Assembly (NCBI GenBank): GCA_028279985.1 | Contig: JANQMR010000015.1 | Span: 1-64,000 of the forward strand | DNA from: Woeseiaceae bacterium | GTDB taxonomy: Bacteria > Pseudomonadota > Gammaproteobacteria > Steroidobacterales > Woeseiaceae | Length of the DNA: 64,000 bases | Reading direction: 5' to 3' | Shown here: positions 61,425 through 64,000 of the stretch, piece by piece | How positions within the stretch are numbered: position 1 is the stretch's first letter | Layout: the number at the start of each line of letters is the position of its first letter | Notes under the pieces: model-generated | Seen by the model: only the letters and a program-made list of their open reading frames with translations | What the model was told of the DNA's origin: nothing | Databases searched by the model: none | Made by a program: the position numbers and the translations under genes

Positions 61425-61450
61425 CCGATGGCGCTATCCGATGGCGCTAT
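61425..61450 (+). repeat. 13-bp tandem duplication CCGATGGCGCTAT
   Basis: Two perfect adjacent copies (61425-61437 and 61438-61450) upstream of the M48 gene. The second copy contains a false ATG in frame with that gene. Confidence 0.9.
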
Positions 61451-61482
61451 ACTGGGTGCCTGATCTGGAGGTGAGAATCGTC

Positions 61483-62259
61483 ATGCGAGCCGCGAAAACC
61501 ACTGTCGCAGCCGGATTGGCCGCTCTAGTACTGACGGCCTGTGCCACCGTGTCCGAGCAGGACATGGCCGTCGAGGCGGCGAAACAGTTCTCGGAAATGA
61601 AAGCCTCGATGCCGCTGGAAACCGACCGGGCGACGATCGACTACATCGCTTGCGTGGCGAATGCGATTGTCGCCCAGTTGGAGTATCCGTACTCCGAAAT
61701 TGATTGGGAGATGGCGGTTTTCGACCACGAAGCGGTCAATGCCTTCGCAATGCCCGGCGGCAAGATCGGTGTCATGACCGGCATACTCAAGGCCGCGCAA
61801 AACCAGGACCAGCTCGCCGCGGTCATCGGCCACGAGATTGCACACGTAACGGCAAAACATTCCGCCGAGCGGGCGTCGCGTACCAACGTGTCGGGGGTTG
61901 GCATCCAGGTTGCGGCCGTGCTGCTCGGCGGCGGTCACCAGGGCGCAACCTACACGGCATACGAAGCGCTGCAGCAGGGCGCGGCCCTCGGCATCATGCT
62001 GCCGTTCTCGCGGGGGCAGGAAACCGAAGCCGACGTCATCGGCTTGAGTTACATGGCCAGAGCCGGCTTCGATCCGCGCGAGAGCGTAGCTCTGTGGCAG
62101 AACATGAGCGAGGAAGCGGGCAAGGCGCCGGCCGAATTCCTGTCCACACACCCGTCGAGCGAAACCCGTATCGACAATCTGGTCTCGCAGTTCGGCGATA
62201 CGCTCAAGCTTTACAACCAGGCGCTGAACGAAGGGCGCCGGCCGAACTGCGAAAGATAA
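61483..62259 (+). CDS. M48-family metalloprotease lipoprotein
   Basis: 258 aa from ATG 61483 (GGAGGTGA upstream). Lipobox LTAC with Cys20, so outer-membrane or periplasmic lipoprotein. Zinc motif HEIAH (117-121), with the third ligand Glu in GQETEADVIGLSYMARAGFDP. FAMPGGKIGVMTGIL is the typical M48 loop. It resembles LoiP/YggG-like quality-control proteases. A GTG at 61471 is an alternative start; in-frame sequence before that lies in the tandem duplication and is not signal-peptide-like. Confidence 0.92.
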   Translation: MRAAKTTVAAGLAALVLTACATVSEQDMAVEAAKQFSEMKASMPLETDRATIDYIACVANAIVAQLEYPYSEIDWEMAVFDHEAVNAFAMPGGKIGVMTGILKAAQNQDQLAAVIGHEIAHVTAKHSAERASRTNVSGVGIQVAAVLLGGGHQGATYTAYEALQQGAALGIMLPFSRGQETEADVIGLSYMARAGFDPRESVALWQNMSEEAGKAPAEFLSTHPSSETRIDNLVSQFGDTLKLYNQALNEGRRPNCER

Positions 62260-62342
62260 GCCGGCGGCCGGATACCGATTTCCGACATGAGACGATCCGA
62301 AGCCACCGGGCGCGAGGGCGCGCAGCGTGAGGAAGCGCCGCT

Positions 62343-62501
62343 TTGAACGACTGGCTCGACGTCATGCTCGAGGAGATCGCACGCAAGAAACGCGAAGCCG
62401 AAGAGGCGCAGGCGGAGCTCGAACGCCGCGAATCCGACGACGACGGCAAACCGCCCGGCGGTCAACCGATCGCCGACCGGTCGGACGACCAGTCGAGATA
62501 A
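62343..62501 (+). CDS. Small acidic/charged helical protein (52 aa)
   Basis: TTG at 62343 opens a 52-codon frame (NDWLDVMLEEIARKKREAEEAQAELERRESDDDGK...), one charged amphipathic helix followed by a Pro/Gly-rich tail. GAGGAAG is upstream. A 19-aa ORF (ATG 62287) ends by TGA overlapping this TTG (TTGA), which could couple translation. The composition looks protein-like, but the start and reality are uncertain. Confidence 0.45.
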   Translation: MNDWLDVMLEEIARKKREAEEAQAELERRESDDDGKPPGGQPIADRSDDQSR

Positions 62502-62635
62502 GAACGGAACTCCGCCGGCAGCCTGCCGTGGCCAGGCGCGCCAGCGCCGGGAAAGCCGAGGGAAGATAGTCCACACGGGTGTCCGTCATCGTTCTAAAAT
62601 ACTGCCACGTTTGTCTGAACGTCGCGGAGACCAGC

Positions 62636-64000
62636 TTGTCGGACGTGCCCGATCGTGGCATCACGGTCACCGAAATCGCGGCGATGGGGGAGCCCATCGA
62701 CGTGTGGCCCGAAACGTCGGTTGCTTTCATAGGCCGAACGCTGCGCGGCCCGCTGAACACGCCGGTTGCCGTCGGCAGCTTTGCCGACTTTCGCAAACGT
62801 TTCGGCGCCGGTTGGTCCCGGTCGAGCCTCGGGCCGGCCGTAGAGCAGTTCTTCGAGCACGGCGGCCGGAGGCTTACCGTGGTGCGGGTCGCCAACAACG
62901 CGCGCGGTGCGACGATCTGCCTGCCCGCCGCCGGTTCGACCCTGGTGTTACGGGTGCTGGAGCCGGGTTCCACCGAGCGCGTTCGGGCATCGGTGGACTA
63001 CGACGGCGCCGAGGGCGACGCGATTTTCAATCTGGTCTTGCAGCGTATCGATCCGGGAACGGGACTGGTGTCGGACCAGGAAGTGTATCGACGCCTGTCT
63101 TGCCGGGAGCGGGACGACCGTTTCGTCGCCGATGTCCTGCTGAACTCTCGAATGGTCCGCGTCGAGCAGCCGTATCCAAGGCACCGTCCCGAGGCGACGC
63201 TGGCGGGTAATGCCGGTTACGACATCGGCTATGTCGAGCTCGCACAGGCGGGGACGGACGGCGACGAACTGACCGATTACGACCTCGTCGGCTCGCGCAG
63301 CGACGGCACCGGCCTGTTCGCCCTCGAGCAACTCGAACAACTGGACCTGGTGTATCTACCGCCGCCCGGCAAAGGCCGCGACCTCGGTCCGGCGGCGGTC
63401 CTCGCCGCCGAACGCTTCTGTCGTACGCAGCACGCGATACTGGTGCTCGATCCGCCGTCGACCTGGAAGGCCACGGCCGACGTCGTCGCGGGGGTCCGCC
63501 GCGGCGGTCTGCAAAGCGAGAATCTCATTACTTATTTTCCGCGAATGCACCTGCGCGGCGACGTCGATCGGGCGCCGCGTGCGGCCGGCGGTGCGCTGGC
63601 GGGGCTGTTATGTAAAAACGATCGGCTCCACGGCCGCTGGTACGCCCTAGACGACGCGCCCGGGTTCAAACGCGATTTGCGGCCCACGATCGATCTGGAC
63701 GACGAGGCGTCGAGCAGGCTCACGGGTCTCGGCGTGAACGTGATTCGTATCGGGCCGGCCGGTACCGCGCGGCTCGCGGGTTCGGTGACCCTCGGATACG
63801 GTAACGGCATGGACACCGATTCCGCGCGCCTGACGGCGCGGCGCCTGTGTCTCGGCATTGTCTCGAGCGTCGATCGCGCAACGCGGTGGGCCATTTTCGA
63901 ACGGCTGGGCGAGCGCCTGGTCCAAGGCTTAAGGAGACAGTTGAAAACCTACCTTGCGGGCCTCGCCGCCAGCGGTGCGTTCGCCGACGACGGCTTCGAC
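62636..64000 (+). CDS. Phage/eCIS tail-sheath-like protein (5' part)
   Basis: The frame starts at TTG 62636 with CGGAG upstream and stays open to the right edge (455 codons seen). The N-terminus resembles contractile-tail sheath proteins: GITVTEIAAMGEPIDVWPET, VAFIGRTLRGPLNTPVAVGSFADFRKRFG, and VEQFFEHGGRRLTVVRVANN, matching the sheath pattern in which a glycine-introduced strand, an AFIG-R-RGP-N-PV loop and an A-V-xxFF-NGG motif occur. It lacks a signal peptide, as expected for a cytoplasmically assembled sheath. A prophage, tailocin or extracellular contractile injection system could follow beyond the edge. GC content and codon use look like the neighbours. Confidence 0.75.
   Translation, partial: MSDVPDRGITVTEIAAMGEPIDVWPETSVAFIGRTLRGPLNTPVAVGSFADFRKRFGAGWSRSSLGPAVEQFFEHGGRRLTVVRVANNARGATICLPAAGSTLVLRVLEPGSTERVRASVDYDGAEGDAIFNLVLQRIDPGTGLVSDQEVYRRLSCRERDDRFVADVLLNSRMVRVEQPYPRHRPEATLAGNAGYDIGYVELAQAGTDGDELTDYDLVGSRSDGTGLFALEQLEQLDLVYLPPPGKGRDLGPAAVLAAERFCRTQHAILVLDPPSTWKATADVVAGVRRGGLQSENLITYFPRMHLRGDVDRAPRAAGGALAGLLCKNDRLHGRWYALDDAPGFKRDLRPTIDLDDEASSRLTGLGVNVIRIGPAGTARLAGSVTLGYGNGMDTDSARLTARRLCLGIVSSVDRATRWAIFERLGERLVQGLRRQLKTYLAGLAASGAFADDGFD

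Follow-up and report, generated by a model that had tools for sequence, protein, structure and literature searches.

A sheath protein of the contractile tail family, encoded at the right edge of the Woeseiaceae window analysed here (a stretch of 64,000 nucleotides), is best explained as a contractile injection system (CIS) sheath that was domesticated as a stand-alone cytoplasmic protein working without a tail, and a probability of about two in three is given to this reading. The sheath proteins known so far are components of machines, namely phage tails, tailocins, CISs and T6SSs. The evidence comprises the identity of the protein, its neighbourhood, a shift of constraint along its sequence, its distribution across the Steroidobacterales and its phylogenetic position.

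Gene structure and sheath identity

The window (G000:C29:1-64000) lies at the beginning of a contig of 107,432 bases, which continues for 43 kb more. On the forward strand, a frame at 62636-64000, open from before 62636 through the end of the window, extends past the window to its end at contig base 64195. The TTG at 62636 is the predicted start of this frame, giving a product of 519 aa. A probable ribosome-binding site, CGGAGA (62625-62630, forward strand), is located 5 bases ahead of the TTG, and a probable -10 promoter box, TAAAAT (62595-62600, forward strand), was recognized by its match to the consensus. When 19 Woeseiaceae loci were aligned with the window, most of them proved to have kept the TTG, the CGGAGA and the -10-like box, the last at its aligned position and, in most relatives, in a TTAGAAT-like form.

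The window protein matches the tail sheath family PHROG 23 (E 2.1e-22), and a search of the PDB with the family profile is led by the CIS sheath of Streptomyces coelicolor (8bky, E 3e-72). AlphaFold models of two orthologues, from a Woeseiaceae bacterium (pLDDT 87) and Steroidobacter gossypii (pLDDT 85), retrieved solely sheaths among the PDB matches listed, with best E values of 2e-26 and 6e-28, respectively. These profile matches and the predicted core fold place the protein in the contractile tail sheath family, in agreement with the resemblance that the earlier note had pointed out. That note had also called the sequence divergent from common sheaths, and rightly so, because the window protein alone has no Pfam match at E 1e-3 and none of 19 relatives (0/19) matched NCBIfam, so that NCBI family models leave these 19 members unnamed. 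The solitary protein is thus called a sheath on the grounds of descent and fold, not of function.

The closest solved relative by sequence is Cis2 of S. coelicolor (8bky, 8bl4; PMC10066040), a single-protein sheath of the same fold. Cis2 comes from a complete cluster of genes and encloses a tube, whereas no tube or baseplate gene adjoins the solitary sheath, such genes are undetectable anywhere in most carriers, and the conserved half of the protein is reversed. The best structural match of both orthologue models is the haloarchaeal CIS sheath of Halogeometricum borinquense (9ezm), which, unlike the solitary sheath, belongs to a functional contractile system (PMC11566945). Phage and tailocin sheaths (T4 gp18, P1, R-pyocin) share the core fold and are much more distant.

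Genomic neighbourhood

The earlier note had taken the frame for the first gene of a domesticated tail or an extracellular CIS (eCIS) and expected tail genes downstream. In the 43 kb past the window, covered by profile scans for part of the proteins and by visual inspection for those farther away, no tail genes were found, which is an outcome that the note itself had named as refuting its reading; this stretch encodes DUF1800 and DUF1501 proteins, an S9 peptidase, a GTPase, PlsB and other housekeeping proteins. Whole-genome searches for the sheath, tube and gp25 families returned only the solitary sheath on this contig, with all other matches on contig C21. Several linked eCIS core genes (tube, spike, baseplate, ATPase, cap) were found neither downstream nor at 79 solitary-sheath loci, none of which has a CIS tube or baseplate neighbour. 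An eCIS or tail beginning at the edge was therefore rejected, as the contig continues and tail genes were not found on it; the term "domesticated" fits, and the view of the sheath as the first gene of a contractile apparatus does not. At related loci the gene is solitary as well. The complete CIS of this genome lies at C21:225-247 kb (L008 and L009, G000:C21:225001-262000) and encodes its own sheath, two gp19-like tubes, a CIS_tube protein, spike, gp25, tape-measure and AAA ATPase. The sheath of this complete cluster belongs to the same superfamily as the solitary sheath, but the two are far apart in the tree.

No tRNA was found in the window or in the 43 kb beyond it, that is, on the whole contig, and no integrase, capsid, lysis or other phage genes were found near the sheath, whose neighbours are housekeeping genes. 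The description in the earlier note of a locus free of nearby tRNA, integrase and phage genes is upheld, and a prophage remnant was rejected, with no phage genes and no close phage relative. A T6SS would have a two-part sheath and a gp25-like TssE along with other Tss proteins; of these features, the sheath and gp25 were compared and do not fit, the sheath being a single chain and most carriers having no detected gp25-family gene.

Upstream of the sheath gene, an M48 peptidase lipoprotein (61441-62259, forward strand; Pfam PF01435 and synteny) belongs to a conserved LipA-SohB-M48 neighbourhood and not to the sheath function. It is followed by g059, encoding a tiny 52-aa protein (62343-62501, forward strand; cluster k18, 20 loci counting related ones), which has no match in Pfam or PHROG. 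In several families of the order this small gene directly precedes the sheath, standing at about 20 loci between a YkuD L,D-transpeptidase gene and the sheath. Of the 69 loci for which enough sequence was present, 55 have the YkuD gene among the six genes upstream of the sheath; on the downstream side, 42 of 61 loci have alpha/beta hydrolase, PlsB or GTPase genes at the same distance. The window locus (61441-62636) is without the YkuD gene of most relatives and also without the divergent D-cysteine desulfhydrase-like gene of Woeseiaceae. At L063:10765-12063 and at similar loci in many Woeseiaceae, genes judged by eye to encode a probable ECF sigma factor, an anti-sigma-like protein and small periplasmic proteins are located between the sheath and DUF1800-DUF1501. 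Two groups of neighbours were considered as functional hints and set aside. DUF1800 and DUF1501 are near the sheath solely in part of the Woeseiaceae and absent from the loci examined in other families. For YkuD, M48 and PlsB the synteny is conserved, but no shared function is claimed, because in Woeseiaceae a promoter-like region of its own precedes the sheath.

Reversal of conservation along the sheath

Tube contact and inter-subunit linking reside in a conserved inner core that is built from both termini of sheath proteins (PMC9230969; PMC5797969). In 11 CIS relatives of the solitary sheath, the N-terminal GVYVEE strand, the KAPAG, LNP and WGARTL motifs and the C-terminal PAEF strand are fixed or nearly fixed. 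These inner-domain assembly motifs are mostly lost in the 80 solitary sheaths; in Woeseiaceae, a GITVTE strand remains where the CIS sheaths have GVYVEE. Mean column entropy in CIS sheaths is 1.19 for residues 28-140 and 0.66 for residues 301-508, versus 0.70 and 1.51 in the solitary sheaths of Woeseiaceae and 0.99 and 1.64 in those of Steroidobacteraceae, and in every group a difference as large was obtained in 0 of 2000 shuffles. As judged from these alignments, conservation is reversed: the CIS relatives keep the C-terminal assembly part most, whereas the solitary sheaths keep the N-terminal half and conserve the C-terminal part least. Regional dN of close pairs agrees weakly with this reversal. 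All ten solitary pairs change more in the C-terminal stretch, with ratios of 1.08-4.1, the contrast being strong in only two of the ten, while three of five CIS pairs change less in that stretch and the other two depart from the CIS pattern. Relaxation of the C-terminal half is a matter of comparison with the N-terminal half, as dN in the C-terminal half is still far below dS.

These data bear on the main rival explanation, according to which neither tube nor baseplate is needed for the protein to go on polymerising into cytoplasmic tubes (polysheath), which would serve as a scaffold or stress structure. Both orthologue models are predicted to have the full sheath fold, and the N-terminal linker is, by eye, about as long as in CIS sheaths; with the fold complete and the linker length nearly kept, some assembly would still be possible, which counts against the best explanation. 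A phage sheath protein is also reported to self-assemble into long tubes when other phage proteins are missing (PMC6357053). On the other hand, most of the assembly-domain motifs fixed in CIS relatives have disappeared, and conservation is lowest in the C-terminal stretch; polymerisation is considered unlikely, with a probability of about one in five.

Distribution and absence of detectable tail genes

Among 60 relatives, an initial search gave matches in 50, with G043 matching solely through a CIS sheath. The family profile matches 209 of 247 near-complete Steroidobacterales genomes, about 205 of them clearly, a clear carrier being defined by an author-set cut of profile E < 1e-50. Carriers include Woeseiaceae, S. 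gossypii and Povalibacter uvarum. The solitary sheath is mostly present as a single copy at a similar chromosomal place across the order.

The gp25 protein is a baseplate component of contractile tails, eCISs and T6SSs. It was detected in 21 of the 247 genomes: 17 of the roughly 205 clear carriers (8%) versus 4 of the roughly 42 others (10%), the overlap having been tallied by hand from two result tables. As gp25 is no commoner in carriers than in other genomes, the sheath and gp25 are not associated. A gp25-type baseplate gene went undetected in 188 of the roughly 205 clear carriers, a figure that depends on profile sensitivity and on genomes that are mostly drafts. In six carriers closed as a single contig, neither gp25 nor a tube gene was found. 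The tube family was found in 6 of 60 relatives; a tube gene is present in Povalibacter and was not found in S. gossypii.

An accessory or spare sheath acting in trans with a CIS elsewhere in the genome would suit the window's own genome, with its complete CIS. This alternative is disfavoured and has a very low probability, as gp25 is missing from the search results for most carriers and no commoner among them, the six closed carriers yielded neither gp25 nor tube, and the C21 CIS has its own sheath, distant from the solitary one in the tree. A role for the sheath in its own genome's CIS was accordingly rejected, the carriers being mostly without a CIS.

Separately, the genome G030 contains a second solitary sheath (L057:9188-10708; G030:C3, about 385 kb), with canonical terminal motifs intact and no tail neighbours, and neither gp25 nor tube was detected in that genome. 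Perhaps this sheath lost its tail partners more recently.

Phylogeny, origin and selection

A single group in a quick tree (SH-aLRT 97) unites 79 of the 80 solitary sheaths. Only L055 is left out of it, at the base on a long branch, and the grouping of all 80 is supported at 65 only. The sister group (support 100) consists of Streptomyces-type CIS sheaths; besides those from Streptomyces it includes sheaths from other Gammaproteobacteria, and the latter adjoin a tube gene. Outside the order, the closest relatives that were found have next to them a tube gene 69-72% identical to tubes in the set. No relatives of the solitary sheath were found in viral contigs or phage records at the sensitivities used, and by tblastn the phage records encode no detectable relative.

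Defence genes usually show a patchy spread. The solitary sheath, unlike these, is mostly a single copy at a similar place, passed on vertically through most of the order, which argues against an anti-phage decoy that would poison the tail assembly of invading contractile-tailed phages. A sheath-like protein without other tail parts gives such a decoy general plausibility, but the assembly part needed for co-assembly is the relaxed part and no phage relative was found in the searches above; a decoy is thus quite improbable. A functionless, decaying relic of a lost CIS, or a pseudogene, would account for the absent tail partners and the eroded motifs, but it is refuted in practice by purifying selection, with frames intact in about 205 genomes of many families, dN/dS of about 0.04-0.23 among the closest solitary pairs, a conserved start and promoter-like region, and some residues invariant across the order.

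Proposed function and significance

For the preferred reading of a domesticated CIS sheath, the following course of events is proposed. An ancestor of the Steroidobacterales would have possessed the sheath of a Streptomyces-type (subtype IId) CIS, which may have been kept as a single chromosomal gene once tube, baseplate and spike were gone. Since then, it would have been inherited vertically from its own place in a housekeeping region. The protein most likely works alone in the cytoplasm, retaining the sheath fold and presumably no longer wrapping or contracting around a tube. A cytoplasmic location is suggested by the protein start, at which no signal peptide is visible by eye. The N-terminal half, together with the outer domain next to it, may carry the activity, probably through binding to some other component of the cell; neither a new partner nor a catalytic motif was identified. 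In a reading that is regarded as rather probable, a contractile sheath has become a stand-alone, vertically inherited protein of the order; tube and baseplate would have been lost, constraint would have moved from the assembly domain to the N-terminal and outer portions, and the protein would have a function distinct from those of all described sheaths.

Searches of open-licence literature found no account of a solitary conserved sheath, and those on orphan sheaths, Steroidobacter sheaths, Woeseia contractile systems and rhapidosomes did not return a description of the gene. Solitary sheath genes would have been filtered out of a published eCIS survey, in which a minimum of four linked core-type genes was demanded (PMC8213781), and would escape any survey built on several linked core genes.

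The retention of a sheath, mostly without other tail parts, at one chromosomal place in most of the Steroidobacterales suggests that it has taken on a new job. Retained by itself across most of an order, with cultured strains such as S. gossypii and P. uvarum among the carriers, the sheath would be a clear example of a tail component turned into an ordinary protein of the cell. The solitary sheath makes a general question testable, namely what a sheath can do without a tail.
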